Origin: Armatimonadetes bacterium DC
Lineage (GTDB): Bacteria; Armatimonadota; Fimbriimonadia; Fimbriimonadales; GBS-DC
Direction of reading: 5' to 3'
Assembly (NCBI GenBank): GCA_001442985.1
Contig: LDYB01000016.1
Span: forward strand, 1-64,000
DNA: 64,000 nucleotides
Part shown: positions 4,177 to 49,740 of the stretch, one piece after another
Numbering within the stretch: position 1 is the first letter of the stretch
Layout: each line of letters starts with the position of its first letter
The notes under the pieces: generated by a model
What the model saw: the letters and a program-made list of their open reading frames with translations, nothing else
Database searches by the model: none
What the model was told of the DNA's origin: nothing
Made by a program: the position numbers and the translations under genes

Positions 4177-5850
4177 CTATGAGCCCTTCAGCTCTTGCAG
4201 GAACTTGTTCGCTGTTCTGGCAAGCAACTGCGATCGCTCGAACAAAAAGTCAAAGTAACGATCTACGCTCCAAGTTTCTTTTAGTCTTTCTCTCGGCTGG
4301 ATGAAGGAGTCGGGAATCAAATGACGGCGCAGTTCATCCTCTGGGATTTGGAACTGCAGTATGTAAGAACCTGGCTCTTTGCTTCCGAGCTTAGTCACAT
4401 TCGTGCGTTCGTTGAGCACGGTTATATTCGCCAGAGCATGTATCTCCTCGTCGGAGATACCTTTTTGCTTCAGGACTCGCCGAGGGTAAATATGGTGCCA
4501 GTGAGGCTCGAACCCTGCTGTTACCTCAGCGCCGCTTTTATCGTAACCAAGACGGGTTCCATCCACCCAGTCGCGTGCTCCTTTACGGAAAAGTATCAGA
4601 TACAATATCAACCGCATGAAACGGCTTCCAGCACGGTCAAAGCGATTCAGGAAAGCATCTTCAGGTATTTGTGAAAGCACTCTCAAGCGACTGTGGAGGA
4701 TTTCCAATGCCTGATCGTAGCCTTCCGCCTCAGCAATCGCCCGGACGTCTTCGTTGAGCGTAACGATTGGCGAGCCACTGTAGCGTCCGTCCCAGTTGGC
4801 AAGAAGGAACCAGTGCAAAGCTTTACCGAAGCGGTAACCGGGCTGATCTCCCCAGCGGTGGTGCAATACGAAGAGAGGTATCAGACTGTTCGTGGAAGGG
4901 AGAAGTTCTGAGGATGTTATACCGAACTCCGCTAAGTGTTTCAGAACCCCCATAATAGTCTTCTTGGTTTCGTTCCAGACCTTTGGCAAACTTTCTTGAC
5001 TCCAGAATTCCTTAGGCACTTCCATCAACCGCGCGCGCCCCCTACCGATGCCGGTCATGGTGCGAATAAAAACCCCTGCCTCGAGATCCCATCCTTTCTC
5101 TTCGAGCTCGGAGCAGAAGGGAAGGTACTCTTCTCGTACCCAACCACGGTTGCGAACAGCCGCTACCGCCAAAACTACATCGGCTTCTTTTACGCGGGTT
5201 CCCTCACGGTTCAAACGAGTAAATATTTCGGCAACATCGTCTACCCCGTGGTCAATCTTGATGATTGGAATATCTCGCTCGCGAATTTGCCAGAGACGCT
5301 GGAGATGAGCGTGCGCCAGTGCAAAGCACCGCATCATTTCGTCCGAATCTCGACTAACCTGCGATGCTATTTTCTGAGCGAGTTCGGTCAGGTCTTCAAC
5401 TCTCTCCCTGCTAAGTACACTGCGAATGCTGATCCAGCGGGGGTCGCGACGACGAACAGGGTTCGGCAGGGCGAACTCCAGGTAATCACCTGCTTGGTCA
5501 GGTAAGATGTTCACCATTACATCATAGCGCTCAAGGGCTTCGTTCCAATCGCGCGCGTCAGGCCACCAATATGGCTTTTGACCCAGCAGCAAACATAACG
5601 CTGTCGTGCGCTGCTGACCGTCCACAATCCACAGGGAGGCTTGTGTGCCCTGTGCTGTCTTAGATTCCTGATACTCGGCAGAGTCCCACAGCAAAAATGC
5701 CCCCACAGGGTAGTCACGGTACAGCGATTCTGCAAACAGTTTCACTTGTTCTGGGTCCCAGACGAATTCTCGCTGGAACTCAGGGATATCTACATTCTTA
5801 CTGACCGCTTGCTTTACGATTTCCCTGACTTTGAGTTGTTCAAGCGCCAT
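4177..5850 (-). CDS. gmrSD: GmrSD-type (DUF262 + HNH) nuclease
   Basis: The N-terminal DUF262 domain shows the ParB-like NTPase motifs IPEFQREFVWD (22-32), DGQQRT (77-82) and TRLNREGTRVKEAD. The C-terminal part has an HNH/DUF1524-like nuclease core starting at HWHHIYPRR (450-458), with conserved asparagines in NITVLNERTN. Families with this single-chain layout cut modified or foreign DNA in type IV restriction. The gene is solitary, has a good SD (GGAGGT, 7 nt from the ATG) and is visibly more AT-rich than its neighbours, which fits horizontal acquisition. The target is unknown; a BREX- or phage-defence-associated role is equally possible. Confidence 0.85.
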   Translation of the reverse strand: MALEQLKVREIVKQAVSKNVDIPEFQREFVWDPEQVKLFAESLYRDYPVGAFLLWDSAEYQESKTAQGTQASLWIVDGQQRTTALCLLLGQKPYWWPDARDWNEALERYDVMVNILPDQAGDYLEFALPNPVRRRDPRWISIRSVLSRERVEDLTELAQKIASQVSRDSDEMMRCFALAHAHLQRLWQIRERDIPIIKIDHGVDDVAEIFTRLNREGTRVKEADVVLAVAAVRNRGWVREEYLPFCSELEEKGWDLEAGVFIRTMTGIGRGRARLMEVPKEFWSQESLPKVWNETKKTIMGVLKHLAEFGITSSELLPSTNSLIPLFVLHHRWGDQPGYRFGKALHWFLLANWDGRYSGSPIVTLNEDVRAIAEAEGYDQALEILHSRLRVLSQIPEDAFLNRFDRAGSRFMRLILYLILFRKGARDWVDGTRLGYDKSGAEVTAGFEPHWHHIYPRRVLKQKGISDEEIHALANITVLNERTNVTKLGSKEPGSYILQFQIPEDELRRHLIPDSFIQPRERLKETWSVDRYFDFLFERSQLLARTANKFLQELKGS

Positions 5851-6128
5851 AGGTCAAACCTCCAGATACTACCCCTCTTCCTCCTGAAGAAAAGGGCAAC
5901 CTCGGCTATCGAGATACAATACTGAACTCCCCAGCTTCGGGTGCTACTGTACTGCATATTCGATGCCCTCTGCGGGATTCCTATTTTTTTTGCACTGTCA
6001 AGGAACCGCTCACAAGCACGCAAGAAGCTCCAGCATTTTTGCTACCTTTGGGGCATGGCATGATCGCTGTACACGGGGTATCCCTCAGAAGCCGCTGTGC
6101 GGAGCGATCTTTGGGTAAGATTCTCCTT

Positions 6129-6983
6129 ATGCAGATTCTCAAGACCATCGCCGAAGTGCGTCAGTGGGTTCAGGAGTGCCGCCGGGCTGGGGAAGCGATT
6201 CACTTCGTGCCGACGATGGGCTATTTCCATGAGGGTCATCTCAGCCTGATGCGTCGGGCGAAAGCCGATGGCGGGCGCGTGATAGTGAGCCTGTTCGTGA
6301 ACCCGCTCCAGTTCGGTCCGCAGGAAGATTTTGAACGCTACCCGCGCGATTTTGAACGCGATCGAGCGATGGCAGAATCAGTGGGCGTAGACGCGATGTT
6401 CGTCCCCGAAGCGAGCGAGATGTACCCACCCGACTTTCAAACGCAGGTGCGCGTGCAACGCCTGTCCCAGCCCCTTTGCGGACGCTCGCGACCGGGGCAT
6501 TTTGAGGGCGTGGCAACGGTGGTGTTGAAACTGTTCCACATCGTGACGCCCGACCGCGCCTATTTCGGCGAGAAGGATTATCAGCAGCTGCGCATCATCC
6601 AGCAGCTGGTGCGCGACCTGAACCTGACAGTGGAGATTGTGCCCTGCCCGATTGTGCGCGAACCCGATGGGTTAGCCATGTCGTCGCGGAATGTGTACCT
6701 GACTCCGGAAGAGCGCGCCGCGGCGACGGTGCTGTACCGGAGCCTCCAGTGGGCGCAGGAGCAGGTGGCACAGGGGATGCGCGACGCCCACGTCCTCCGG
6801 GAGCAGGTGCAGGCGCAGATTGCCGCAAGCCCCTATGCCCGAATCGACTATGTGGAAATTGTGGACGCCGAGACTCTGGAGCCGCTGGAAGTGATAGACC
6901 GCCCTGCGCGGATAGCCGTCGCCGCCTACTTCGGCAAAGCAAGGTTGATTGATAATATGGCGCTGAACCCACCTTCAGGGTAG
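6129..6983 (+). CDS. panC: Pantothenate synthetase
   Basis: The enzyme joins pantoate and beta-alanine with ATP, the last step of pantothenate synthesis. From the ATG at 6129 the protein has 284 residues, the normal length. Motifs include VPTMGYFHEGH with the HxGH nucleotide-binding signature, LFVNPLQFGP, GHFEGVATVV, YFGEKDYQQL and REPDGLAMSSRN. A longer frame back to 6039 exists, but it has no SD and the added residues do not align with the family. TAAGAT preceded by GGG (6113-6121) ends 7 nt before the ATG, so the transcript is probably leaderless. panB and panD are not in the window. Confidence 0.95.
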   Translation: MQILKTIAEVRQWVQECRRAGEAIHFVPTMGYFHEGHLSLMRRAKADGGRVIVSLFVNPLQFGPQEDFERYPRDFERDRAMAESVGVDAMFVPEASEMYPPDFQTQVRVQRLSQPLCGRSRPGHFEGVATVVLKLFHIVTPDRAYFGEKDYQQLRIIQQLVRDLNLTVEIVPCPIVREPDGLAMSSRNVYLTPEERAAATVLYRSLQWAQEQVAQGMRDAHVLREQVQAQIAASPYARIDYVEIVDAETLEPLEVIDRPARIAVAAYFGKARLIDNMALNPPSG

Positions 6984-6985
6984 GA

Positions 6986-7011
6986 GCGGGCAGGCACGGA
7001 TGCCCACCCGC
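6986..7011. terminator. Imperfect hairpin between panC and the aldo-keto reductase gene
   Basis: The arms GCGGG-CA-GGCA and TGCC-CA-CCCGC flank a 4-nt loop with a 2x2 internal mismatch. It lies in the only convergent gap here wide enough for a terminator and could serve both strands. Neither side has a U-tract, so the role is tentative. Confidence 0.35.
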
Positions 7012-7018
7012 CCACCGA

Positions 7019-7996
7019 TTACCACGCAAACGCTTCAGGCGCAGGTCCGCCCGGACCGGGGAAAATCTCGTCGAGCCGTTTGAGCGCCGCCTCGTCCAGT
7101 TTAATCTCCAGCGAGCGCATGATGTGGTCTAACTGCTCGACGGTGCGCGGTCCGATGATGGGCGCCGTCACAGCAGGCTGGTGCAGCAGCCACGCAATCG
7201 CGACATTGGCGGGATGCTCGCCCAGCTCGCGGCAGAACGCCTCGTAAGCCTCAATTTTAGCGCGGTTTTTCTCCAGCGCTTCCTGAATGCGCTCGGAGCG
7301 GCGCCGCTCGCCCGACGAGTCGCTCAAAATACCGCCCAGCAGCCCGCCCGCCAGCGGACTCCACGGAATCACGCCCAGCCCATAGGCTTGACACGCAGGC
7401 AGTACCTCCATCTCCACCATACGGGCGTTCAGGTTATACAGGCACTGCTCGGAAACCAGCCCCATAAAGTGGCGCTGCTTGGCAATCTCCTGCGCCTGCG
7501 CGATATGCCAGCCTGCGAAGTTGCTGCTACCCACATAGAGGATTTTGCCCTCGTAGTAGAGCTGCTCCATCGCCTGCCAGATTTCTTCCCACGGGCACTC
7601 GCGGTCGATGTGGTGCATCTGATAGAGGTCAATCCAGTCGGTCTGCAGGCGGCGCAGGCTGTCTTCGCAGGCGCGTTTGATATGGCGTGCTGAAAGGCGC
7701 GACTCGTTGGGCCAGTCGCCCATCACGCCATACACTTTGGTGGCAATCACCACCTTTTCGCGCCGTCCGCCTCCTTTGGCGAACCAGCGCCCGATAATCT
7801 GCTCCGTCCAGCCTTCGCCCTTGCGCCAGCCATACACATTCGCCGTGTCGAAGAAGTTGATCCCCAAATCCAGCGCCCGATCCATAATGCGGTGGGACTC
7901 TTCTTCGGAAGTGTGGGGACCGAAGTTCATCGTGCCCAAACAGAGTGGGCTAACGAGCAGTCCAGAACGACCCAGATGCCGATAGTTCATAGCCAT
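7019..7996 (-). CDS. Aldo/keto reductase
   Basis: This 325-residue NADPH-dependent oxidoreductase has an (alpha/beta)8 fold. The catalytic tetrad is visible: Asp50 and Tyr55 (FDTANVYG), Lys87 (ATKVYG) and His128 (YQMHHID). The late SxxxGxR-type cofactor-binding stretch is in PIIGPRTVEQLD. It resembles the YajO/YghZ-like branch that reduces sugar or methylglyoxal-type carbonyls; the substrate cannot be read from sequence. AGGAGG sits 5 nt from the ATG. It lies 3' of xylose isomerase on the same strand with a 47-nt gap, so a shared sugar-metabolism transcript is plausible. Confidence 0.9.
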   Translation of the reverse strand: MAMNYRHLGRSGLLVSPLCLGTMNFGPHTSEEESHRIMDRALDLGINFFDTANVYGWRKGEGWTEQIIGRWFAKGGGRREKVVIATKVYGVMGDWPNESRLSARHIKRACEDSLRRLQTDWIDLYQMHHIDRECPWEEIWQAMEQLYYEGKILYVGSSNFAGWHIAQAQEIAKQRHFMGLVSEQCLYNLNARMVEMEVLPACQAYGLGVIPWSPLAGGLLGGILSDSSGERRRSERIQEALEKNRAKIEAYEAFCRELGEHPANVAIAWLLHQPAVTAPIIGPRTVEQLDHIMRSLEIKLDEAALKRLDEIFPGPGGPAPEAFAW

Positions 7997-8043
7997 AACT
8001 CCCTCCTGCTGAAGCGATTCAACGCTGGGCAGGGGTTTCCTGC

Positions 8044-9207
8044 TCAGCGGATGCCCATCAACAGTTCCATCGTCAGCTGGTCTAAGCGTTCATACTGGTA
8101 GCCTTTTTTGCCCAGCGCCTCGCGGTCAAAGGGGTAGCTCTTGAGCCACGCCGCGTTTTCGCGCGAATACTGCATGCGCTCCTGCAGTTCCACATCCCAC
8201 TGGCGAATCTCGGCGAGTAGTTCCTGAATTTCGGGGTCCTGATTGAACCGCTCCGCCTTCTCCTTGAGAATCAGATAGGTGCGCATGCAACCTTTTGCGA
8301 ACTCCCACACGCCCTCTTCGTCTTCCGTGCGGTAGGCGTGGGCATCGAAGTGGCGCGGTCCGCTGTAGCCGTTGTCTTCCAGCAGCTTCACCAGGAAGAA
8401 CGCCCCTTTGATATCCTCTGCGCCGAAGCGGTAGTCCTGGTCGTAGCGCCCGATTTTCTGGGCGTTCAGGTCTATGTGGAAGAGTTTGTTGCGCTCAATC
8501 GCCTGGGCGACAGCGTGGACGAAGTTGAGACCCGTCATGGTCTCGTGTGCCACTTCGGGGTTGACCCCGCACATGCTGGGGTCGTCGAGGGTTTCGATAA
8601 ACGCCAGCATCGCGCCGACGGTGGGCAGGAAGATGTCGCCGCGCGGCTCGTTGGGTTTCGGCTCCAGCGCGAACCGCAGGTTGTAGCCCTGATCTTTCAC
8701 ATAGTGGATGAGGAAGTTCATGCACTCACGATACCACTGGAGCGCCTGCACGGGGTCTTTGGCGGCGTCGGTTTCGGTGCCTTCGCGTCCGCCCCAGAAG
8801 ACATAAATTTCCGCGCCGAGTTCCACTGCGAGATCAATCGCGTGCATACTTTTCTGCAGGGCGTAGGCGCGTACTTTGGGGTCGTTGCTGGTGAACGCGC
8901 CGTCTTTGAAAACGGGGTCATAGAACAGGTTGGTGGTGCCCATCACAAGGCGCATATTGTAGTCTTCCAGCGCCTTTTTGAACTCGCGCACGATACGGTC
9001 GCGCTCGGCGGGGGTGGCATCAATCGGCACGAGGTCGTTATCGTGCAGGTTCACGCCCCATGCGCCCAGCTCGGAGAGTTTCTGCACAATTCGGGTCGGG
9101 GGGATAGGGGGTCTCACGAAATCACCGAAGGGGTCGCGTCCGCGGTTGCCGACCGTCCACAGCCCAAAGGTGAACTTATGCTCCGGTTTCGGCGTGTAAT
9201 CTGCCAT
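8044..9207 (-). CDS. xylA: Xylose isomerase
   Basis: It interconverts D-xylose and D-xylulose (and glucose and fructose). The 387 residues from the ATG at 9207 match the short class I enzymes of actinobacteria and Thermus, which lack the N-terminal extension of class II. Motifs are [22 protein letters not shown] with the catalytic His, [26 protein letters not shown] and FDAHAYR with metal ligands. GAGGTG lies 7 nt before this ATG; the 42-residue upstream extension lacks such a signal and overlaps the neighbouring restriction gene. No xylulokinase or xylose transporter is seen nearby. Confidence 0.95.
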
Positions 9208-9278
9208 CCGAATCACCTCGATAAGGGGATTCGACGCAAGGGGGGGATTCCTGCTACGGTCATGGATCTGTGGCAGAT

Positions 9279-10592
9279 TCAGCCAGTCTCTTGGGCATGG
9301 CTCTCTAAAAGGCAAATCCAGTCCTGTACCCACTGATCTGCGGGTTCGTCGATGGGAGCGCGATCACGCCGGCGCTGGCAGAGTGACTCTATATAGGCAA
9401 TCATCCAGTCGGCTGCAATCTCCCCGCGAGCGTGTTGCTGATTCGTGCGCTCCAAATAAAACTCTATCCACTCTCGAAGGGAGAGGACTTTGACATCCAC
9501 TTCTGTAGTTTCTTTGATCTCCATAAGTCGCTGGCGTATGTCCTCTCGCAGGTCAGGCTCGCACTCGGTTACAAAGCCTGCTGTTTCAAGCATTCGGTCT
9601 TGCAGTTTGTCTTCCAGCTCGTACAGCTCGTCCATCAAGTAAGGTTTACCATACTTTGCGTCCCAAGCTTCAAGAACAACCTCTGGATCATCAAGGCTGA
9701 CAATCTCTATGTCCGCCACATTCCGGTGTTTTTTGTTCGCCGTTCGCATCTGGCATAAGGACAGGAGGCGCCCATTTAGCAGCTCCCTGTCTTCAAGCAC
9801 TTGCAAAAAGGCGTGCATGGATACTTCCAAAAGTCTTGCTGAATAAGAGGACCTGTTGACATGCTGAATAATGGTCTGAAATATCTCGTCAAAGCCTCCT
9901 TTTGTTTGGAGGAAGTGATGGGTAGCATCAAGAGCCTTTTCTGAAAGCTCTCTAAAACTTTCGGTGCGGTTGCGCAATACGGCAAGCATGTAGCGTAGGG
10001 CTGCCTCGCTATTTACCTCACCTGAGTCTACCTTATCAATCAATGTAAGCCATGCATCGCGTGCTCCACGAACTGATGCTTTGTAAAATTGTGAATAAGG
10101 ATAGTTCTCAGCTAAGCTGCGAGTCATAAAAACGCCATACTTGTTGAGTCGAATCAGGTCGTGCCTGCGGAGGAACGGCGTAACAAATTCTGAGTCCAGG
10201 CTTCGCATCGGAATGCCCTCACGCCAAGAGAAGTTGCCTCGTCCACCTTTGTGCAACCTGATGCTCTGTTCAGGTGCAAGACTCTTGACGACCAGCTGCA
10301 GAACCGTGAGACCTGCTACAGCGCGTCCAACCTCACTGGTTATGGAGTTTACAATCTGTTCAATAATTTCTCTGACAGAATCGTCAATTTCTACCTTCTC
10401 AGCAGAAGCAGGAAGGTCTTCAAAAAGCTTGTCCAACCAGCCATCCCTCAGGCGCTGCCTGATCCTGTCAAGGCGCTCTTTTGCCCCGGAGGTGGGTTGC
10501 CCTTCCCAAAATACCACCTCACTGCCATCTTCAAAAACAAGAACGCTCCTGTTTTTGAAAACCTTCAAATGAGGCTCCGTTTTGCGTTTCAT
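9279..10592 (-). CDS. Putative type II restriction endonuclease partner of the adjacent methylase
   Basis: This 437-residue protein starts one base after the stop of the m4C methyltransferase (TAA-C-ATG), so the two are translated together. I know no named enzyme that it matches. A PD-(D/E)XK-like arrangement is visible near the C-terminal third: Asp294 in NVADIEIV and the D-A-K triad at 311-313 in EAWDAKYGK. That, and its position behind a methylase, make a restriction endonuclease the most likely role. The gene is clearly more AT-rich than the flanking housekeeping genes. Recognition site unknown. Confidence 0.6.
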
Positions 10593-10593
10593 G

Positions 10594-11655
10594 TTATACA
10601 AAAAATTCCAGCAAACTTGGCTGGACAGCTGTCTCAGCAACTCGTTTCTGTGCTACCTCGCAGTATTGCGGATTGATCTCGAAACCGATATAGTGTCGTC
10701 CCATCCGTTTTGCAACCACCGCAGTGGTTCCTGAACCGATGAAGGGGTCTAACACGAGATTGCCTGGTTCAGTAGTCAGGTGGAGTAATTCCTGCACGAG
10801 GAATTCGGGATAGACGGCAGGGTGATTCGGCGACTTGACAGCGATCACAGGGCACTCTATAACATCACGCTTGATAGCTCGGTCATACATTCGGATAATG
10901 GTAAAGCCACGGTTCCGAAGATGGCTCTTGCGTCCTCCTTCGTAGCCGCCATAGGCTTCAGAATGGATTCCGCGAATTTTCATTCGGAAAGAAGCGATCT
11001 CGCCTCTCTGAACCTCTTCAATAGCTTGCTGAAGAGCCAGTCGCGCTTCCTGTTTCTGCTCAGGGGTCAGATCGGACTGCTCTATCAGTTCCAAATAGCG
11101 TTTGCCGATACCGTTTCCTGCCCTCACACGCGAGCGCATCATATCCCGATGCGCCATAAAACGCTCGTAGTGATATTGATAGTGGTCGCTTTTCACGAAA
11201 TGGAATATGGGTTCGGTGCTGCTGACAAGTCGCCTGCGGTACTGCCTTGGTTCTGGGTTGGGCTTGACCCAGGTAATTACATTAATCAGCTTCACGCCCG
11301 TGCGGCGAGTTGCCTCGTTCGCGAACAAGTATGGCACAAGGAGCAGGGAGCCATTCTCGTATTTATCACCAATATTGAAAAACAGGCTCCCTGTAGATTT
11401 GGTGCATCGTACACACTGCTCAAAAACTTCCAGCAAGTTCTCAATATATTCTTGAGGGCTTGACTCGTTTCCCATTCCCATCCCGCCATAATCGCGCTGG
11501 CGGTAGTAAGGCGGACTGGTGATGACCACATCGACACACTCATCGGGTAACTGACGGAGCAAGTGGCGACAGTCCCCTTGTACTATCTCATCCAGAAAGG
11601 GAATAGTAGCCTGATAGGATTCGCGTCCGAGCCACTCCGTTGAATGCATGCTCAT
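10594..11655 (-). CDS. Beta-class DNA methyltransferase (probably N4-cytosine)
   Basis: This 353-residue S-adenosylmethionine-dependent methylase has motif IV (TSPPYY, 46-51) before motif I (DPFIGSGTT, about residue 300), the beta-class order. SPPY is the form typical of N4-cytosine methylation, so it probably protects host DNA at the site cut by the downstream endonuclease. Residues between the motifs (about 190-240) should contain target recognition. TATTAT (11671..11666) ends 10 nt before the ATG and there is no SD, consistent with a leaderless mRNA; ATG codon 3 is an alternative start. It lies just downstream of rimM, so read-through is also possible. Confidence 0.9.
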   Translation of the reverse strand: MSMHSTEWLGRESYQATIPFLDEIVQGDCRHLLRQLPDECVDVVITSPPYYRQRDYGGMGMGNESSPQEYIENLLEVFEQCVRCTKSTGSLFFNIGDKYENGSLLLVPYLFANEATRRTGVKLINVITWVKPNPEPRQYRRRLVSSTEPIFHFVKSDHYQYHYERFMAHRDMMRSRVRAGNGIGKRYLELIEQSDLTPEQKQEARLALQQAIEEVQRGEIASFRMKIRGIHSEAYGGYEGGRKSHLRNRGFTIIRMYDRAIKRDVIECPVIAVKSPNHPAVYPEFLVQELLHLTTEPGNLVLDPFIGSGTTAVVAKRMGRHYIGFEINPQYCEVAQKRVAETAVQPSLLEFFV

Positions 11656-11707
11656 CCCGAATTCAATAATACCCCACGCTCATCCTTCGCAAAGAAGCCT
11701 GTCGACA

Positions 11708-12289
11708 CTAAATCTCCGGCAGGCGCACCACCATGCGCTTGCGGGGCACATCCACCTCACGGATGTATTCGCCCACGGCGGGGATGGTGTATTTGCCGAT
11801 TTCGTAATAGTCGTAGGCGCCGCCCGGAATAACGCGCTTCAGTTTGCCCACGCGCTCACCCGTTTCTGTAAAGACCTCCATGCCGATTAAATCGTCGATG
11901 TAGTATTCGTCTTCCCCAAGGGGCATACGCTCTTCTGGAGGGATGAGCAGCCACGCCCCCCGCAAGTTTTCGGCATGCGCAATCGTGTCAAAGCCTTCCA
12001 GTTTGATAATCAGGCGGTCGCCCTGCCAGCGAACCGATTCGATCACGCATGGTTGGGGCTGCATCGTGCGTGGGGGACGCTTTCGGTGTTTGGAGGGCGC
12101 AAGCGACTCTTCCCCAGGCGGCTCCGGCTTCGGGGGGAGCCACCAGAACAGACGCGCGCCGGGCACAAACCGCTCCGGAAAATCGGTCTCCGGGCGCACT
12201 CGTACCTCCCCGTGTAGCCCGAACGGACGGAGAACGACTCCGACCGTCACCCAGCGCTGGGCGATTTTGGGCACATAGGGCATCGCCAT
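11708..12289 (-). CDS. rimM: 16S rRNA-processing protein RimM
   Basis: RimM is a ribosome-maturation factor that binds uS19 in the 30S head. The N-terminal reductase-like barrel begins VGVVLRPFGLHGEVRV and the C-terminal PRC barrel contains DDLIGMEVFTETGERVG. At 193 residues it is slightly long because of a charged, proline-rich insertion (about 52-78). It follows khpA after 8 nt in an rpsP-khpA-rimM operon, the normal order. trmD and rplS, which usually follow, are absent. Two ATGs (codons 1 and 3) are possible. Confidence 0.93.
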   Translation of the reverse strand: MAMPYVPKIAQRWVTVGVVLRPFGLHGEVRVRPETDFPERFVPGARLFWWLPPKPEPPGEESLAPSKHRKRPPRTMQPQPCVIESVRWQGDRLIIKLEGFDTIAHAENLRGAWLLIPPEERMPLGEDEYYIDDLIGMEVFTETGERVGKLKRVIPGGAYDYYEIGKYTIPAVGEYIREVDVPRKRMVVRLPEI

Positions 12290-12296
12290 CGCGAGG

Positions 12297-12578
12297 TCAG
12301 GACTCTTCGGTCTCTTCGCTGGCGCTGGTGGTTTCCGAGTCGCGGTCGGTCACCACAATCACCTGCACGCGGGTGCGGTTTTTGGCGCCCACTGCCTCGG
12401 CGACGGTGCGCAGGGCGTTCACAATCCGCCCGTTTTTACCAATCACGCGCCCGCGATCCCCTTCCGCGACGATGATGCGATAGCGCAGCCGGGAGCCGTT
12501 GCGCTCTTCCTCAATCACGACCGCCTGCTGATCGTCCACCAGCGCTCGCACCGATGCCTCTAAGAACTCTCGTAGCAT
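12297..12578 (-). CDS. khpA: KH-domain RNA-binding protein KhpA
   Basis: This 93-residue single KH domain carries the GxxG loop in GRVIGKNGRIVNALR (about 43-57). The acidic and serine-rich tail (SASEETEES) is probably disordered. KhpA homologues bind RNA, often with KhpB/Jag, and affect cell division and translation. Its place between rpsP and rimM is conserved across many bacteria and supports the call. Confidence 0.93.
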   Translation of the reverse strand: MLREFLEASVRALVDDQQAVVIEEERNGSRLRYRIIVAEGDRGRVIGKNGRIVNALRTVAEAVGAKNRTRVQVIVVTDRDSETTSASEETEES

Positions 12579-12599
12579 GGCTATCCTCGCTTAAATTAT

Positions 12600-12878
12600 T
12601 CACTGCGCTGCTTTCGATTCCTTCTGACTCTGGAACTGTTGCCAGATGCCTGCGCGTTCCAGCAGCAGTTGCACCGTGTCGGTGGGTTGTGCGCCTGTAC
12701 GGAGCCAGTAGAGCACGCGCTCCTCGTTGAAGTTCACCTGCGCGGGGTCGGTGAGGGGGTTGTAGTGTCCCACAATCTCCACGAATCGCCCCGAGCGCGG
12801 CGCATTGCTCGGCGCTACCACTACACGATAGAACGGCTTCTTCTTTTTCCCTATGCGCATCAAGCGTATCTTCAGCAT
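12600..12878 (-). CDS. rpsP: 30S ribosomal protein bS16
   Basis: This 92-residue protein shows the family opening [20 protein letters not shown] and the downstream [13 protein letters not shown]. It is the first gene of the operon. AGGAGGCG lies 8 nt from the ATG, and a GGGTATAAT element precedes it. Confidence 0.97.
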
Positions 12879-12910
12879 CTGTGTTTTCGCCTCCTGCGTG
12901 TCGAGGGCAT

Positions 12911-12919
12911 ATTATACCC
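12911..12919 (-). promoter_or_regulatory. GGGTATAAT promoter element of rpsP operon
   Basis: Minus-strand TATAAT at 12916..12911 is directly preceded by GGG. No -35 hexamer is recognisable at the expected spacing. It gives a leader of about 25 nt carrying a strong SD. Confidence 0.55.
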
Positions 12920-12943
12920 TAATTCAGGGGTTCCGCAGGGGGC

Positions 12944-13513
12944 TTATCCCAAAATCTTTTGCAGATAGCGAATGGTTTCAGGGAACGGCGGCACACCTCC
13001 GTAGCGTTGCACATTGCCCGGACCTGCGTTATAGGCGGCGAGCGCAAGGCGCCGGTCGCCGAAGCGGTCTATCAGGTGGCGCAGGTAGCGCACACCGCCC
13101 TCGATATTCTGCACGGGGTCATAGGGATTCTGAACCCCCAGCGCCCGCGCCGTTTCGGGCATCAACTGCATCAGCCCAATCGCGCCTTTTGGAGAAACGG
13201 CATTCGGGTTGCCACCCGACTCGGCTTCAATAATGCGCAGGATGAACTCGGTTTCCAGCCCGTAGCGCTGGGCGATCGGCTCCACCAGCGGCGCCCAGCG
13301 TTGCACTTCGGGCGGGAAAGGGGCGCTGCTGCCTGTGGGTTGCAGTTCAAAGCCGGGGGGCAATCCGCCACTGGCAGGGAATCCCACAGGGGGCACCAGC
13401 TCGGTGAACTGGGGCGTACTCGCCTGAGGCAACCGCCCCTGAATCTGCTCAATGCGCGTCTGGATTTCCTGTATCCGCTGAAGGGTTCTCTGGAACGACT
13501 CGCTGATACGCAA
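12944..13513 (-). CDS. Lytic transglycosylase (SLT domain) coupled to fliJ
   Basis: This 189-residue protein has a C-terminal SLT-type lysozyme fold: catalytic Glu in IIEAESGGNPNAV, then GAIGLMQLMPETA and LALAAYNAGPGNV. It cleaves peptidoglycan glycan strands. The N-terminus is an amphipathic helix ([21 protein letters not shown]) and a proline-rich linker. No signal peptide is present. I start it at TTG 13513..13511, where GAGGTGG sits 6-7 nt upstream; the longer frame would overlap fliJ by 245 nt and has an implausible composition. The 65-nt overlap with fliJ suggests coupled translation and a job opening the wall for the flagellum. Confidence 0.78.
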   Translation of the reverse strand: MRISESFQRTLQRIQEIQTRIEQIQGRLPQASTPQFTELVPPVGFPASGGLPPGFELQPTGSSAPFPPEVQRWAPLVEPIAQRYGLETEFILRIIEAESGGNPNAVSPKGAIGLMQLMPETARALGVQNPYDPVQNIEGGVRYLRHLIDRFGDRRLALAAYNAGPGNVQRYGGVPPFPETIRYLQKILG

Positions 13514-20438: not shown

Positions 20439-21248
20439 TTAGCCAAAACGCCCCCGAATGTAGTCCTCGGTCTCTTTCTTTTCGGGCATGGTGAAGATTT
20501 TGGCGGTTACATCAAACTCGTGAAGCACGCCGTTCAGGAAGAAACCTGTGAAATCAGAAATCCGCGCCGCCTGTTGCATGCCGTGCGTTACGATTACAAT
20601 CGTGTAGTCCTTCTTCAGCTCGGTCAGCAGTTCTTCGATGTAGTAGGTGGCGGTGGGATCCAGAGCGGAAGTGGGTTCGTCCAGCAGAATCACCTCGGGG
20701 TTGACCGCCAGCACGCGGGCGATGCAGAGCCGCTGCTGCTGCCCCCCAGAGAGCGCCAGCCCCGACTGCTTGAGCTTATCTTTCACCTCGTTCCATAACG
20801 CCGCCTGGCGCAGGCTGGTCTCCACAATCTCGTCCAGAATCCGCTTGTCGCGAATACCGTGCATGCGCGGTCCGTAGGCGACATTATCGTAAATGCTCAT
20901 CGGGAAGGGGTTGGGCTTCTGAAACACCATGCCCACTCGCTTGCGGAGGTCCACCACATCCACATCGGGGTCGTAGATATTTTTACCGTCCAGCAGCACC
21001 TCGCCCTGAATCTTGACGCCCTCGATCAGGTCGTTCATGCGGTTGAGACATCGCAGGAAAGTGCTTTTGCCGCACCCCGAGGGACCAATCAGCGCGGTGA
21101 TACAGTTGCTTTTGATTTCGATGGAGACATCTTTAAGGGCATGGAAGTCGCCGTAATAGAGGTTAAGCCTGCGCGTTTCCATGCGCGCGGGCAGTGCCTT
21201 CAGATCCGTTTTACCCTTGTCGAACAGTTCTACTGTAGAGCCATCCAC
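20439..21248 (-). CDS. pstB: Phosphate ABC transporter ATP-binding protein
   Basis: This 269-residue ATPase drives high-affinity phosphate import. Walker A is GPSGCGKST, the Q-loop lies in [23 protein letters not shown] (typical PstB text [10 protein letters not shown]), the signature is [16 protein letters not shown], and Walker B is [12 protein letters not shown]. The start is GTG at 21248. The pstS, pstC, pstA and phoU genes are missing from the window, so this copy must work with distant partners. CGGGTATCCT (21270..21265) lies 16 nt upstream. Confidence 0.96.
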
Positions 21249-43488: not shown

Positions 43489-43518
43489 TTGACATAAAGC
43501 GGTAAAATGTGGTATAAT
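43489..43518 (+). promoter_or_regulatory. Perfect consensus promoter of the tubulin-like operon
   Basis: TTGACA (43489-43494), an 18-nt spacer and TATAAT (43513-43518). Transcription should start near 43525, about 30 nt before the ATG at 43555. It is one of only three TTGAC-type promoters seen here and suggests strong constitutive expression. Confidence 0.8.
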
Positions 43519-43554
43519 GTATGCCACTGATAAGCATTGAAGGGGATGGTGCTT

Positions 43555-44790
43555 ATGAGACGCTGGCGACTATGTGTGCTTGTCGTGTCGCTATGGGTGA
43601 TTCTGGTGAATGCTCAGGGGGAGGAGAACCCGATTGAGGTCATCGCACCGCGACCGAGTGCCGTCTACGGGTGGGGGCGACAAGCACCAACCGTGCAGCT
43701 GAAAGTGCGTGCCCGTTTTGCCGAGCCGACGCGGCGTGTCTTTGTGACTGCTATCCTCTACAGCCACAGAGGGGAACTTATCCAGCGCGTTCCGTTACGA
43801 GACGACGGACAATTCGGCGATGCGGTTGCTGACGACCGGGTGTTTGTGGGTGAATATATCCCCCATGCACCGCAAATATATCGTATTCGCTTCAAAATGG
43901 AATGGCAGTACAATGGGATCTCAAAGCAACACTATTCTCCCTTCCACTCGTTTGAGGTCGTTCGCGTTCCTTACGCCCGCTTCAGAGATAAGCTGAAACA
44001 GTCTCAAGCGCATGTGGGCGCTGCAACACGCCAGACCGTGGTATTGCTTATAGGGGACTCTGAGAAACGCTACACAGGTTCCATGGACGGCATCGTGATC
44101 CAGGCATATGCTGAACCTAAAGCGCATGTCGAGTTATCAGAACCCCCTGCACCTGAAAACTCCATTACCTACCGGTTTGAAAAGCCAGGGCACTACACGC
44201 TCTATGTGAGGACTGTTTTGAATTACAAAGGACAGCAAATTGCCACGGAACCTGATATGATGAGCGTGGCGTATACACAGCCGTCCCGATGGTTGTTGTA
44301 TGCCCCTTTGATTGCGCTTTTAGCGTTCATACTCCTCCCGCCCCGCCAAATACCCCTGTATCGTCATTTCCTTTCCCTCAGGGACCGACGCCTTGATCTA
44401 ACCTACGAAGTAGAGGTAGCGGGCGATGAGAGCATAAGCATTGGTCCTCAGGGCTCAGACCATCCCATTCTCGGCTACGAAGGTGAAGCCATCGAACTGC
44501 AGGCGCGTCCAGGGGAAGACAGAGTGTTTCTTATCGCTGGTGAACTCCGAAACGCAACTGGCACGCAGGAAGTGGTTCCCCTCAATAGCCCTCTTATGCC
44601 AGAGCAAGAGTATCTCATTGGAAACATTGCGGTCTTAGAGTACAAGGAAGTTTTGCGCAACGGTAGCAAGCGAGGAAGCCGGCTGATGCCCAACACGGTT
44701 CTTAAGATGCTGGCTTTAGCCGTGGCTTTGCTCGTAGCGGCTTTGTATTTCTATCAACAACACCAGCTTCAGCAGCTGGCGCAGCTTTAG
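43555..44790 (+). CDS. Signal-anchored membrane protein of the tubulin-like operon
   Basis: This 411-residue protein has a signal peptide (1-20, MRRWRLCVLVVSLWVILVNA), an extracytoplasmic beta-rich region (about 25-240), a transmembrane helix (about 246-262), a predicted cytosolic beta-rich domain (about 263-381) and a second transmembrane helix at the C-terminus (382-400). The segment LRDDGQFGDAVADDRVFVGEY (81-101; core DDGQFGD) resembles the choice-of-anchor X type domain often fused to von Willebrand A proteins. No MIDAS DxSxS is visible. The cytosolic part has an FHA-like look (ISIGPQGSDHPIL), but I am not sure. It is the first gene of the operon; AGGGG precedes the ATG. Confidence 0.75.
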   Translation: MRRWRLCVLVVSLWVILVNAQGEENPIEVIAPRPSAVYGWGRQAPTVQLKVRARFAEPTRRVFVTAILYSHRGELIQRVPLRDDGQFGDAVADDRVFVGEYIPHAPQIYRIRFKMEWQYNGISKQHYSPFHSFEVVRVPYARFRDKLKQSQAHVGAATRQTVVLLIGDSEKRYTGSMDGIVIQAYAEPKAHVELSEPPAPENSITYRFEKPGHYTLYVRTVLNYKGQQIATEPDMMSVAYTQPSRWLLYAPLIALLAFILLPPRQIPLYRHFLSLRDRRLDLTYEVEVAGDESISIGPQGSDHPILGYEGEAIELQARPGEDRVFLIAGELRNATGTQEVVPLNSPLMPEQEYLIGNIAVLEYKEVLRNGSKRGSRLMPNTVLKMLALAVALLVAALYFYQQHQLQQLAQL

Positions 44791-44801
44791 GAGGAACAGC
44801 C

Positions 44802-47800
44802 ATGCAGAACCCTATTGCAGTGGAATATCATGAGCGCGGTGAAGTACGCCCCACTCTGGTAGTGGGATTAGGCGGCAGTGGTGTGTATACGGCGCGTCGG
44901 CTCAAGCGCCTCATTCAGGAACGCTACAGCACCGAGGGGTTGATTCGATTCCTGTATGTGGACACCGATCAAGGGCAGTTTCAGCATGAGCCAACCCTGG
45001 CGGATGTGGAACCTGAAGAGATGGTGCCGCTGGCGATTGCCCATCCAGAACAGATTGTAGACGAGTGGCGCCGCAACAAAGACCTTCACCCTTACCTGGA
45101 TTTTTTGAACGGGGATGTGAATGTCGGTCTGTTGCGAAACGCGGACGGCGCTGCAGGGATTCGTCCAATAGGACGGTTCGGTTTCCACGCCTCCTTTGAC
45201 CACATCTATCCGCGCTTCCAGCATGCGGTCCAGCGAATCATGCAGGTGGAAGAGCAGGTACGCGCGCTCATGGCGACCGTACCCTACAGTGTGGAAGTCG
45301 TGAGTAGCCAGCCACGCATCTACCTCATCACCTCGCTTTGCGGAGGCACAGGGTCGGGAATCTATTTTGACACCGCGCTGGTGCTACGCGAAATCCTGCT
45401 GAAACAGAACCTCGATGGCGAAATTATCGGGATTTTCTACCTGCCCTCGGTGTTTCAAAATGAGGCGGGTATCTCCCGCTCGATGCGCGAAGTGATTGAG
45501 GCAAATGCGTATGCCGCCCTGATGGAGCTGGAGTACTTCTGCAACGCGAACCATCTGTCTTCGCAGCAGTGGGAAGTGAAGTACCGCATGATCCCGCCCA
45601 TCGTGATTAAGGAACCCCTTGTGGACGAGGCTTATGTGGTGGAGAGCGCAAACGCTGCAGGGCGTTCCCTCGGCTCCAAGTACGAAGTTTTCGAGATGAT
45701 TGCCCGCAGCCTCCTGATGGATATCGGCTCCCCACTGGGAGCGCGGGCACGCAGCGCAAAACGCAACTCCCTGGCGATTATAGACGCCATCCGTTGCCCT
45801 GAAACAGGCGAGCATCGCCTTCTTTCGAGCCTTGCGGTTGCCAGTATCGCCGTGCCCATCCAGGAACTGACGGAGTATTGCTGCCTGCGTGTGGCGCACG
45901 CGCGACTCAGGCAAAAATTTTCGGGAACCGCACAACACGACTTTCACGAAGAAGCACAGAACTTTTTACGGACTAACGGGCTAACCGCCGAAGACATCCG
46001 TAAAGATTTCAACCCTATCCTTGCTGCCTCGGGCAAAGTCAATTTGGACCCCGATGACCCCAAACGCGGCCTCGATCGTGCAAAGCAGCGAGCCATTGAA
46101 CAAGAGCAAAAGCTGGAAGCCTACGAGAAACAGGTTCGGAAAGAAGTGCTGAACAAGGCTAAAACAGCTTTGGAAACGCGCTGTCAACAACTGGAACAGG
46201 AACACGGCATCGAGGGGGCACGCCTATTTCTGGAAGCCTTGCTAAGATGCATCGATCAGGAGAGCAAATCGGCTCTCCAGAACAGCGAGCCCGTGCCTCC
46301 GCTCTCGTGGGACGAGGTTCTTCAGAAAATTGAAGGTAGTTCAAGGGGACTTCGGATACCCATAACCCTCGGTGGAGCAAAGCAACGCCGTGTCAGGGAG
46401 CAAGAAGTGCGTGTACAGAACTATCTGGAACGCAAGGGTGCCAGTGAAGTCCTGCAGAAAGTCGCGGACATTCTGGGGGCAGACACCGATTCTATGGCTG
46501 CCCTTGTCCGACAAGAGCGTAGCCGTCGCGCTGACGAGTACTCAGCCACCGAGCAGATTATCCGCGCCATCGAGGAACGCCTGCGTGAGATCGAAAACCC
46601 TGAGTATGGCAAATCGGGAACGGCGTATCCTTTAGAACAGCTGGCATGCCTACGACGCCATTTCAAGCAATTCTACGACACACACGGCGCGCAGTTCGAG
46701 AAACCAGTGGACATCTATGTCTCAGGCAACACGATTGTGGTGCGTAGCAGTGGGCGCAGGGAAGGCAAAGTTTACTGGGTCTCGAATATGGCGGAGCTCC
46801 TCAATCGGCTGGTTCAGCTGGTGGCAGAGGCGATTGCTCGCCAAATTCGTGAGGCAGCCAATGTGATGGAGTTCCTCAAGCCTGTCTACGAAGAGGAGCA
46901 GACAAGCAATACTGACGATAAAACTTATTTAGAGCGCAAGGTCGAGTACCTCCTTCAAGTTGCGCGCCCGTTCTGGAGCGCGGCACAGCCGCCAGGCAAC
47001 GCCCGGTTTGAGGAGTTCATCGCTGTGAGCGTTCCTCTATCTCCTGAAGATTACAACCGTGCTGAGGAAGCCAGACGCCTCGACGAGGCCGTGGAGAAGA
47101 TTACCCGGCTGGCTGGAGTTGCGTGCGAGCGTGTGCGCGATGGCTATCCGTTCGCCCTGACGGTGCTGAATCGTACCTATGGCGCTCGCGCCTACTACTT
47201 GAAGAGCGTGCCAAAGCTGGAACACAGCTACCGCACGCGGATTCGTAATCGTCAGGTTCAAGCCCACCTGCATCTGGATGCGCGTTTTGCGCAACTTCCG
47301 AAGCTGACACCGCCCGACCCAGAAGCCTACCTCTGGTGGACAGTCGCCCTCAACCTTGGATATGTGGCTCAAATAGACGGGAGGTTCTATTTCGGTGTCG
47401 ATGCAACCGGTCCTCACGCGGTCCCGCGCCCCAGGTATCAGACCCAGCGCGAAATACGCCTTCCTCTCACTGATGAGGCGGGCAACAGCCTTCTGGAGGG
47501 CATCTATCGCGGAGGCGACCCAGAGGCTCTATTGGGCGAGGACTACACGGTTGCTCAGCGTATCTTCATGGATACCCCAGAATATCAGGAGCAAACGAGG
47601 TCTGCCTTTGAAAGCATTAAGCGCGCCGTGGGGCGGGAGAGTCTGATAAAGTCGCTGGAGGAGCTGGAGAAACGGTTGCGGGAGGCAGCCAATCGCGCCG
47701 ATGAAGAAAGCGTTCACTGGCTGCGCAATGAACGCGATCGAATATCCAGTCTCATAGCCTCGCTGAAGGAGGAAAGCAATGTTCTATCCCACAATGGTCG

Positions 47801-47813
47801 TCGCGGTTGGTGA
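44802..47813 (+). CDS. Tubulin/FtsZ-superfamily protein (Tubulin_2-like)
   Basis: This is a 1003-residue protein. The N-terminal GTPase-like region shows a T1 loop GLGGSG (22-27) after strand PTLVV, an acidic T3-like VDTD (53-56) and the tubulin signature loop T4 CGGTGSG (180-186) followed by helix IYFDTALVLREILL. An activation-like domain runs to about 380. A charged coiled coil (about 420-470) and a long C-terminal region (about 640-1003) without known motifs follow. The catalytic T7 NxDxxD is not obvious. AGGAGG lies 7 nt before the ATG, 11 nt after the upstream stop. The family is known only as large bacterial tubulin-like proteins of unknown function. GTP binding is likely; polymerisation is inference. 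Confidence 0.82.
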   Translation: MQNPIAVEYHERGEVRPTLVVGLGGSGVYTARRLKRLIQERYSTEGLIRFLYVDTDQGQFQHEPTLADVEPEEMVPLAIAHPEQIVDEWRRNKDLHPYLDFLNGDVNVGLLRNADGAAGIRPIGRFGFHASFDHIYPRFQHAVQRIMQVEEQVRALMATVPYSVEVVSSQPRIYLITSLCGGTGSGIYFDTALVLREILLKQNLDGEIIGIFYLPSVFQNEAGISRSMREVIEANAYAALMELEYFCNANHLSSQQWEVKYRMIPPIVIKEPLVDEAYVVESANAAGRSLGSKYEVFEMIARSLLMDIGSPLGARARSAKRNSLAIIDAIRCPETGEHRLLSSLAVASIAVPIQELTEYCCLRVAHARLRQKFSGTAQHDFHEEAQNFLRTNGLTAEDIRKDFNPILAASGKVNLDPDDPKRGLDRAKQRAIEQEQKLEAYEKQVRKEVLNKAKTALETRCQQLEQEHGIEGARLFLEALLRCIDQESKSALQNSEPVPPLSWDEVLQKIEGSSRGLRIPITLGGAKQRRVREQEVRVQNYLERKGASEVLQKVADILGADTDSMAALVRQERSRRADEYSATEQIIRAIEERLREIENPEYGKSGTAYPLEQLACLRRHFKQFYDTHGAQFEKPVDIYVSGNTIVVRSSGRREGKVYWVSNMAELLNRLVQLVAEAIARQIREAANVMEFLKPVYEEEQTSNTDDKTYLERKVEYLLQVARPFWSAAQPPGNARFEEFIAVSVPLSPEDYNRAEEARRLDEAVEKITRLAGVACERVRDGYPFALTVLNRTYGARAYYLKSVPKLEHSYRTRIRNRQVQAHLHLDARFAQLPKLTPPDPEAYLWWTVALNLGYVAQIDGRFYFGVDATGPHAVPRPRYQTQREIRLPLTDEAGNSLLEGIYRGGDPEALLGEDYTVAQRIFMDTPEYQEQTRSAFESIKRAVGRESLIKSLEELEKRLREAANRADEESVHWLRNERDRISSLIASLKEESNVLSHNGRRGW

Positions 47814-49740
47814 TATTGCTCACCGCGCTCTGCTGGAGACTCATGCTCTGCTCGAGGCGTTTCGTTCGCCCGCACGCCATATCACGGCGCTTGGCGCGTA
47901 CCATCATGGCAACTATCACGCCATTGCAGTGCCCCCCTTCGGCGATACAGATCAGATGGACAATGCTCTCACCCCATGGCTTTATGCAACACGGCTGGAG
48001 CAGAACATTCATCGCGCACGCTTGGAGGGGATGGAGGTAGGACCACCCTCGGGCTATCTGCTGGAACAGATTGTGCTGATTGTCGACAGCAACGCCTACG
48101 AGAGCGCGCTGGAAGTTATGCAGGAACTGCACGGGATCTGCGAGCGTGCGAACGACCTGGTGCCTGCGCGTCTGTACTGGCTGGTGCTTCATCCCTTCTA
48201 CGATGTCCCCTTGCCCGCTGCCATCTGGCGCGACCATCTGGAGCGCGCGCGCCGACTCTCTTCTCTGCAAGAAGGCACAATGTACCTCTTGCGGTTGGTG
48301 CGCTCAGACGGCTCTAACATGACGCAGGAACAACTCCGGGAAACAACCGCGTACCTGCTTTTCGCAGCGCTTCACCCGGCGGAGTTTGTGGGCGAACACT
48401 GGTTCTTCCGCAGTATCACCCATGTTGATAGCGCCCCTCACACAATCGGATGTGGTTTTCTCACGCTACCGCTCCACAAAATCATCCAGTGTCTTCAAGA
48501 TAAACTGGTGGCTGAGGCACTGGAAACATTACTGATTGGCAACGGCGAAATGCCGGCGTTCTCCCTGCCCAGCGAAACCCAGTTCTGGGAGCGCATTATC
48601 CATCAAGCTGCCCAGGAGTGGGGTCAGGGAGGTGCGGCACGAATTCAAACCCAAGGCTCTCTGGATATGACAGCTACCATCCCTGTGCCTGTGCCTGCGC
48701 CGCGCGCAATGACCACAGCCAGCCTCGACGCCATTACGGAGTGGGAAAACCAGTGGAACGAACAGAGGCTACCTCAGTGGCGCAGCAGCGTCGTCCGTGC
48801 CGCTCAACAGGTGGTTAACGAGTATCGCGAGAATCTGCAAGCAGGAATCCAGCAATACCTCCAGACCTCCGAAGTTTCTCTCGAGGCGCTCAAAGCAAAA
48901 ATGGAAGCACTCGAACGCGAGATTGAAGCATGGCAAGTCCACACCCTGAATCCTGTATCCCCCACGCCTGAGCGGAAAACCGCAATGCGCTCTCGACTGG
49001 AGAAAACCCTCAAAGAGGCAGAGCAACAGAGAAGGAGGCTGTGGCGCCGCCGTATGACCCCAGACGAGGAGATCGTCAGTGCGTATGCGCAATCCCTTCA
49101 GGACTACTATGCCCAGAGCTTGCGGGCAGAAGCTCAAAAAGCAGCCCGCTCAGCCGCCTCCCAGATCCGCGAGGCGATACAACACCAAACTCACACGCTC
49201 AGCGTCGTTCTTGAGCGCATCCAGACCGAGTTACGCGAACGGACGAATCGCGTGCAAACTTTCTATTTGCCGGCGCTTCCGTGGCTGAAGCCAATCGTCT
49301 CCCACTGGGAGCATCTGGCACCCGTGGCTCATTCACTCTGGGGCGATCGCAACCTTCGGGCGCTTGTAAGGCAGTACATAGACCCCAAGCGCGATTTGCG
49401 AGAGCAAATTCCATGGATTACCGAGCAGATGGAGCAAAAACTCCAACAGTGGATGACAAGGTATTACCGGAAATTTTCTTACTATCTGAAAGAGCGGTTT
49501 CCAAACCTACAGAAGCGTGTTTTGTGGTACAACGATAGCATGGCGGCGATGCGCTTTCAAGCAGAGCGGGTTCTGTGGCATACCGAGAAGACAGTGCCCA
49601 TTATGTGGCGTGCAATACCCCCTGAGGAACACAGCAGCCTGTCTGTGAATGCGGACGCCCCCCTCCATGACTGGATTAACGAGGGGGTCATGGGCTACAT
49701 CGCCGTTATTCCGGAAGCGATACTGGAACCCGACTCCTAA
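47779..49740 (+). CDS. Coiled-coil partner of the tubulin-like protein, with degenerate T1-like N-terminus
   Basis: This 653-residue protein is of unknown family. Its first residues YPTMVVAVGDIAHRAL line up by eye with RPTLVVGLGGSGVYTARRL of the preceding tubulin-like protein, but lack the GGxG glycines; no GGTGSG loop is present. Residues 325-480 form long charged coiled coils (TEWENQWNEQRLPQW onwards), followed by a helical Arg/Lys/Trp-rich C-terminus. No signal peptide or membrane helix is seen. It overlaps the tubulin-like gene by 35 nt and has a strong AGGAGG 6 nt from the ATG, so translation is coupled. It may be a non-GTP-binding pseudo-tubulin that regulates or caps its partner. Confidence 0.65.
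   Translation: MFYPTMVVAVGDIAHRALLETHALLEAFRSPARHITALGAYHHGNYHAIAVPPFGDTDQMDNALTPWLYATRLEQNIHRARLEGMEVGPPSGYLLEQIVLIVDSNAYESALEVMQELHGICERANDLVPARLYWLVLHPFYDVPLPAAIWRDHLERARRLSSLQEGTMYLLRLVRSDGSNMTQEQLRETTAYLLFAALHPAEFVGEHWFFRSITHVDSAPHTIGCGFLTLPLHKIIQCLQDKLVAEALETLLIGNGEMPAFSLPSETQFWERIIHQAAQEWGQGGAARIQTQGSLDMTATIPVPVPAPRAMTTASLDAITEWENQWNEQRLPQWRSSVVRAAQQVVNEYRENLQAGIQQYLQTSEVSLEALKAKMEALEREIEAWQVHTLNPVSPTPERKTAMRSRLEKTLKEAEQQRRRLWRRRMTPDEEIVSAYAQSLQDYYAQSLRAEAQKAARSAASQIREAIQHQTHTLSVVLERIQTELRERTNRVQTFYLPALPWLKPIVSHWEHLAPVAHSLWGDRNLRALVRQYIDPKRDLREQIPWITEQMEQKLQQWMTRYYRKFSYYLKERFPNLQKRVLWYNDSMAAMRFQAERVLWHTEKTVPIMWRAIPPEEHSSLSVNADAPLHDWINEGVMGYIAVIPEAILEPDS

Follow-up and report, generated by a model that had tools for sequence, protein, structure and literature searches.

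A three-gene operon behind a conserved promoter

The window analysed here is the whole 64,000-nucleotide (nt) stretch from contig LDYB01000016.1 of Armatimonadetes bacterium DC, a hot-spring bacterium; the nearest named relatives, metagenome-assembled genomes of Armatimonadetes and Fimbriimonadales, are the basis of its taxonomic placement. It carries three adjoining genes that encode a membrane protein (gene 1), a large tubulin-superfamily protein of the FtsZl1 family (gene 2) and a probable degenerate partner of the latter (gene 3); their features are collected in Table 1. A preliminary description of this DNA had proposed that the three are transcribed as a unit from a perfect consensus promoter, with strong Shine-Dalgarno sequences and an overlap between the last two genes, and all of these points held. 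AGGAGG lies ahead of gene 2 and AAGGAGG ahead of gene 3, and gene 3 starts within gene 2, with 35 nt in common. The longest open reading frame (ORF) of gene 1 spans 43537-44790 on the plus strand, and its likely start is the ATG at 43555, with AAGGGG 9 nt upstream.

Perfect TTGACA/TATAAT sites are expected by chance 0.01 times in the whole window, and two were found. Because so few are expected, and because the gene 1 promoter is also conserved upstream of orthologues, its match to the consensus is not a product of chance. All 12 positions are kept in four other family members, three with an 18-nt spacer (L030, L027 and L024) and one with a 19-nt spacer (L028), and the DNA around the promoter is mostly divergent. 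The second perfect site of the window is at 130-159 on the minus strand.

The trio is flanked on the opposite strand by a divergent guanylate kinase gene upstream and a convergent gene for a thiamine pyrophosphate enzyme downstream, and the operon is thus self-contained; NlpC/P60 and subtilase genes are also among its neighbours. Elsewhere in the window, about 22 kb from the trio, a protein encoded at 20442-21248 on the minus strand matches mad3 of PADLOC (2.5e-34).

Table 1. Features of the trio, in window coordinates
Feature	Coordinates	Strand	Evidence
Promoter, TTGACA-18 nt-TATAAT, TG before -10	43489..43518	+	12/12 consensus positions
Gene 1, membrane protein, 411 residues from ATG 43555	43555..44790	+	ORF; orthologues in the same position
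Gene 1, choice_anch_X domain	43789..43896	+	NCBIfam NF041940, 2.2e-6, above cut-off
Gene 1, cytoplasmic beta domain, possibly degenerate FHA-like	44341..44694	+	Weak profile match
Gene 2, FtsZl1 / Tubulin_2 protein, 1003 residues	44802..47813	+	ORF; Pfam PF13809
Gene 2, T1 loop GLGGSG, residues 22-27	44865..44882	+	Motif; G24 and G27 97% conserved in 54 FtsZl1 domains
Gene 2, VDTD motif, residues 53-56	44958..44969	+	Motif
Gene 2, T4 loop CGGTGSG, residues 180-186	45339..45359	+	G181, G182 and T183 100% conserved in 54 FtsZl1 domains
Gene 3, partner protein, 653 residues	47779..49740	+	ORF
Gene 3, N-terminal region (about 255 residues), probable degenerate FtsZl1-like domain without GTP-binding loops	47779..48543	+	Profile-profile comparison; intermediates
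Gene 3, VDSNAYES where FtsZl1 has the T4 loop	48082..48105	+	Alignments, register by eye

Gene 2 is a member of the FtsZl1 family

Gene 2, the sole Tubulin_2 gene of its genome, matches Pfam PF13809 over residues 19-366 (3.6e-54; 184.8 bits, against a cut-off of 27). The earlier placement in the FtsZ/tubulin superfamily is thereby confirmed by a hidden Markov model (HMM) search, and the tubulin-like T1, VDTD and T4 loops that had been read from the sequence are present. The family had been taken to be known only as domains of unknown function, which was mistaken: Tubulin_2 is FtsZl1 (FtsZ-like 1), a family that Makarova and Koonin described in 2010 (PMC2875224), and the equivalence of the two names is documented (PMC9871819). 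In a set of 54 FtsZl1 domains, almost throughout from Armatimonadota, G24, G27, R121, G181-T183, D190, E242 and P352 are among the near-invariant positions, and gene 2 has all of them. Its match to PF00091 (0.0025) is below the cut-off and no FtsZ_C domain was found, so that gene 2 is not a canonical FtsZ or tubulin; a separate canonical FtsZ is encoded on contig C26 of the genome, and division therefore has its own FtsZ.

The predicted model of gene 2, made from 7 sequences, is too poor for fold assignment either way (predicted template modelling score, pTM, 0.36). With low overall confidence it has long helices at residues 420-493, 525-558 and 565-598, and most of its C-terminus is helical. 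No relatives were found in the viral contigs searched. A 9.8-kb GenBank record from human faeces, labelled 'Bacteriophage sp.' (MT836542.1), has a Tubulin_2-like stretch with 25% identity.

Gene 3 is probably a degenerate FtsZl1-like partner

Gene 3 had been described as a 653-residue coiled-coil protein whose gene overlaps its neighbour. Size and overlap stand, but the protein is not a coiled coil alone, in that its N-terminal region is probably a degenerate FtsZl1-like domain. No confident family was found for it in Pfam, NCBIfam or PADLOC, and both a direct BLAST comparison of gene 2 with gene 3 and a first, shallow profile comparison aligned only the coiled coil. When the gene 3 family was compared with FtsZl1 using hhalign, the score was 42 (E 1.5e-4, prob 51), whereas none of 100 column-shuffled controls exceeded 22; the confident part of this alignment pairs the C-terminal ends of the two cores. 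Comparisons of the gene 3 family with single FtsZl1 sequences gave scores of up to 37 (median 25), and 120 unrelated neighbours scored 25 or less. In HMM searches the gene 3 family obtained E-values from 0.005 to 1, and most of its members outscored 544 decoys; the gene 3 of the window itself, with an E-value of 0.97, did not.

The start of the protein, (F)YPTMVVAVGD followed by a helix and a strand, resembles PTLVVGLGGSG of gene 2, and a strand-loop-helix-strand unit sits at the position of the FtsZl1 T4 loop. Among 18 second genes, none has a GGTG or G.G[GST].G string in its N-terminal part. Three second genes located directly after FtsZl1 match the FtsZl1 profile, with E-values of 4.6e-10 (L105), 4.3e-8 (L102) and 6.9e-4 (L034). 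These values come from a profile built without the three sequences, since earlier values from an iterated profile may have been inflated. The L105 gene also matches Pfam Tubulin_2 (2e-5), and by their sequences the three look like less decayed versions of the arrangement formed by genes 2 and 3. We consider gene 3, then, a probable degenerate FtsZl1-like partner that lacks the GTP-binding loops and probably keeps the layout of gene 2, namely a core, a coiled coil and a C-terminal domain.

In an AlphaFold model of gene 3 from 5 sequences (pTM 0.49), the N-terminus is alpha/beta and long helices span residues 313-361 and 430-493. A Foldseek search with this model listed the tubulin relative CetZ2 eighth, amid generic Rossmann folds and without significance (E 0.13, prob 0.80), and a comparison with BFVD gave nothing useful.

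Gene 1 resembles the usual membrane partner of FtsZl1

The preliminary description saw in gene 1 a signal-anchored membrane protein that links the operon to the membrane. The link is borne out, and a signal segment is present at residues 4-22, but the picture was incomplete, as two further hydrophobic segments (residues 244-262 and 381-399) are predicted to lie in the membrane. The hydrophobicity profile suggests that the signal leads into a periplasmic immunoglobulin (Ig)-like region, that the chain then crosses the membrane to a cytoplasmic beta domain, and that another membrane segment lies at the C-terminus.

The choice_anch_X domain found in gene 1 is stronger in its orthologues (1e-9 to 5e-14), and it is also present in the vWA-type FtsZl1 partner at L081 (5e-23), which the gene 1 profile matches with an E-value of 2.8e-9 (prob 96). 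Since gene 1 shares this domain with the L081 protein and matches it at the profile level, it is related to the vWA partner. No vWA domain was detected in gene 1 by Pfam and NCBIfam scans; the lone DxSxS string is cytoplasmic and is not conserved. Thus, gene 1 is probably a vWA-less version of the usual FtsZl1 membrane partner. Its cytoplasmic domain weakly matches the corresponding portion of the vWA protein at L102 (E 6.6e-5, prob 64), and the L081 counterpart of this domain has a Pfam FHA match that is below the cut-off (0.014); an FHA-like nature of the domain is weakly suggested.

Conservation of the trio and phylogeny of FtsZl1

Co-occurrence of the neighbours in other genomes, one of two tests named beforehand for the proposal, was borne out. 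PF13809 is present in 15 of the 113 genomes of the class and in 7 of the 18 genomes of the family. All 7 family genomes that have gene 2 also have gene 3, which is found in none of the 106 other genomes of the class (16 of 291 genomes phylum-wide); within the family, G110 carries two loci for FtsZl1, one of them lacking gene 3. The three genes stand in the order 1-2-3 in the window, at L027, L028, L029 and L030 and, cut by contig ends, at L025 and L024/L131; the distant family f19 (L074-L077) has this order too. Two distant lineages of Armatimonadota thus conserve the trio as a unit, promoter included. At L027 there is an in-frame TGA near the gene 3 start (4942-4944) in an otherwise intact trio.

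Other FtsZl1 operons of Armatimonadota encode a vWA-like membrane protein, an OmpA protein and a MotA/ExbB-type protein with a weak resemblance to ZorA. When FtsZl1 domains were placed in a tree, these ExbB/OmpA systems formed one clade (support 100/99), and another (87/94) took in the Thermales systems together with those that have gene 3 or a second tubulin-like gene; partner type thus follows FtsZl1 phylogeny. Upstream of FtsZl1 in two operons of the ExbB/OmpA type (L032:2613-4904 and L033:13844-16423) lie genes whose products have a zinc-ribbon-like start and a putative Hsp70/actin-like ATPase signature, read from the sequence and without a Pfam match for L032.

In Thermales, plasmids of Meiothermus, Thermus and Allomeiothermus have rows of vWA, FtsZl1, hypothetical protein and BrxL genes (L125, L126, L134 and L137; vWA is not present in every row), near HmaC, DUF1156, helicase, CRISPR or methylase genes. 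The third protein of these rows, of about 680 residues, is like gene 3 in length and position. The T. thermophilus plasmid (L137) has no annotated full-length FtsZl1, just a 263-residue ORF before the partner and BrxL. An Azospirillum plasmid (L135) has FtsZl1 beside annotated caspase-family and OmpA genes.

Gain, loss and exchange of the trio

Within genus g92 of family f19, the genes that flank the trio at L076 adjoin each other in two genomes, G186 and G179, where homologous blocks are separated by gaps of about 58 and 113 nt (L139 and L140, the empty site). At L076 the same place is filled by a 6.6-kb block (4238-10844) consisting of the promoter and the trio, and at L100 it is occupied by an FtsZl1 system of the ExbB/OmpA type (6063-12962). 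Beside the latter is a remnant, about 190 nt long (13092-13284), of the 3' end of gene 3, with 74% DNA identity (E 6e-31), which was recovered by two independent searches. The simplest reading of these sequences is that at L100 a different FtsZl1 system replaced a trio. In L078, from a genome of 7 contigs, stops or frameshifts disrupt every gene of the trio, as expected for a unit under joint relaxation. The empty-site comparison was uninformative for the window locus and for L029/L030, since their flanking genes are apart in other genomes. Near 4259 and 10850 of L076, by the ends of the block, a 9-bp inverted match, TGTTTCAGG, is found; about 0.1 such matches would be expected by chance, and it may be a chance occurrence. 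These comparisons show that the trio is a conserved, promoter-bearing module that is gained, lost and exchanged as a block. Because the units come and go in this way between genomes, an optional protective or envelope machine is indicated rather than one for division.

Possible functions

We propose, with an even measure of confidence and doubt, that the trio is an accessory FtsZl1 module, a 'two-tubulin' variant that forms a membrane-tethered, GTP-switched polymer or scaffold. The FtsZl1 protein of gene 2 would be cytoplasmic, would bind GTP and would have a long coiled-coil tail, and gene 3 would supply its dedicated partner, no longer able to bind GTP. The two are predicted to co-assemble, through their cores or their coiled coils, into a polymer or scaffold at the inner face of the membrane. 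Protein 1, presumably a receptor or an anchor, whose periplasmic part is Ig-like and which also has a cytoplasmic domain, would hold this assembly at the membrane and relay a signal from the envelope. GTP-dependent assembly, a complex of proteins 2 and 3 and a membrane tether are thus the predictions of the model, and the role would be in defence or envelope protection, not in division. The filament and the fixed stoichiometry suggested in the preliminary description are putative.

Several observations weigh against this proposal. A T7-like catalytic loop is not recognisable across the 54 FtsZl1 domains; the pattern NxDxx[DE] is missing from the gene 2 core and matches once beyond the Pfam domain, at residue 414. 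T6-H7 was likewise unidentifiable in FtsZl1 according to the 2010 paper (PMC2875224). Because this loop cannot be recognised, FtsZl1 proteins may not form filaments of the FtsZ kind. The Foldseek search with the gene 3 model gave no PDB match below an E-value of 0.001, and a tubulin-like fold of gene 3 is tentative. The third protein of the Thermales rows is not significantly similar to gene 3 (score 24, shuffle maximum 26). The sampled trios of Armatimonadota lie among housekeeping genes, with no obvious defence islands.

A possible but somewhat unlikely alternative, compatible with the anatomy proposed above, is a module directed specifically against phages or plasmids, in which protein 1 senses events at the envelope, the GTPase pair of proteins 2 and 3 is the switch or effector, and the ExbB/OmpA type is a motor-driven alternative. 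The empty sites and the swap of FtsZl1 systems in one slot, with its scar, are consistent with this. So are the Thermales relatives, whose rows include BrxL and have HmaC, DUF1156, CRISPR and methylase genes nearby, and the ZorA-like MotA/ExbB and OmpA proteins of the alternative type. The housekeeping surroundings in Armatimonadota do not favour it, however; no effector domain was recognised in the trio, and PADLOC gave it no convincing match (weak ones at the level of coiled coils, the best 0.006). Literature searches for FtsZl1 in defence found nothing. A wider conjecture, which we regard as doubtful, is that FtsZl1 systems in general are exchangeable, envelope-linked defence machines, built either from a GTPase and a 'dead' tubulin as a pair or from a GTPase and an ExbB/OmpA ion-driven motor, with the two types replacing one another in a single genomic slot.

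It is unlikely that the trio is instead a machine for membrane remodelling or vesicle formation, in which FtsZl1 polymers would deform the inner membrane in normal physiology and gene 3 would be a plain coiled-coil adaptor. Such a role was proposed for FtsZl1 from genome context (PMC2875224), and the membrane segments of gene 1 agree with it, as do extra hydrophobic segments in the coiled-coil region of most gene 3 proteins of f19 and of the L034 protein; the strong, conserved promoter would suit an abundant structural protein. A patchy, swapped and decaying presence, however, poorly fits core physiology, and the alignment of the N-terminal region of gene 3 to FtsZl1, above shuffles or decoys, does not favour a plain adaptor. 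A cytoskeleton for plasmid or chromosome segregation, of the TubZ kind, is very improbable: the superfamily is that of tubulin and some FtsZl1 genes are plasmid-borne, one of them near parAB, but the trio is single-copy between housekeeping genes, its partner is a membrane protein and no DNA-binding partner was noted.

FtsZl1 is widespread in bacteria and archaea, and the literature searched yielded no experimental study of it. The trio is compact and is driven by its own promoter; with a dedicated partner that is probably catalytically dead and a clear record of gain and exchange, it offers a tractable set for probing this deep branch of the tubulin superfamily, and makes a role in defence directly testable. 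If gene 3 is indeed a degenerate tubulin-like partner, the trio would hold an independent active/inactive pair in the tubulin superfamily. The trio as a unit, the probable degenerate partner, the vWA-less gene 1, the cassette behaviour and the Thermales links to BrxL and defence genes all appear to be new.

Comparison with known systems

Zorya is comparable not to the trio itself but to the FtsZl1 systems of the ExbB/OmpA type, which share with ZorAB a MotA/ExbB and OmpA pair and a long helical tail; these systems differ in having FtsZl1 and a vWA-like protein, and no ZorC or ZorD was noted in them. BtubA/BtubB and alpha/beta tubulin resemble the window in that two proteins of the tubulin superfamily form a pair. 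Both partners retain nucleotide-binding sites in those pairs, whereas the second protein of the trio's proposed pair, gene 3, would have lost its GTP-binding loops, and polymerisation is a prediction here.

The Thermales rows are closer: like the window, they have a membrane partner, an FtsZl1 protein and a third protein of similar layout, and they belong to the same clade of the tree. They differ in their true vWA protein, in BrxL downstream, in their defence surroundings and in a third protein without significant similarity to gene 3. With the published FtsZl1 systems the window has in common the core domain with its T1 and T4 loops, the size of the protein and an adjoining membrane-protein gene (PMC2875224). 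Those systems mostly include a vWA partner, and frequently, although not universally, an OmpA protein, a GTPase or a protein kinase (PMC2875224). The trio and its neighbours have none of these four; the trio has instead a dedicated and probably degenerate tubulin-like partner, a type of partner that is absent from the main text of that paper.

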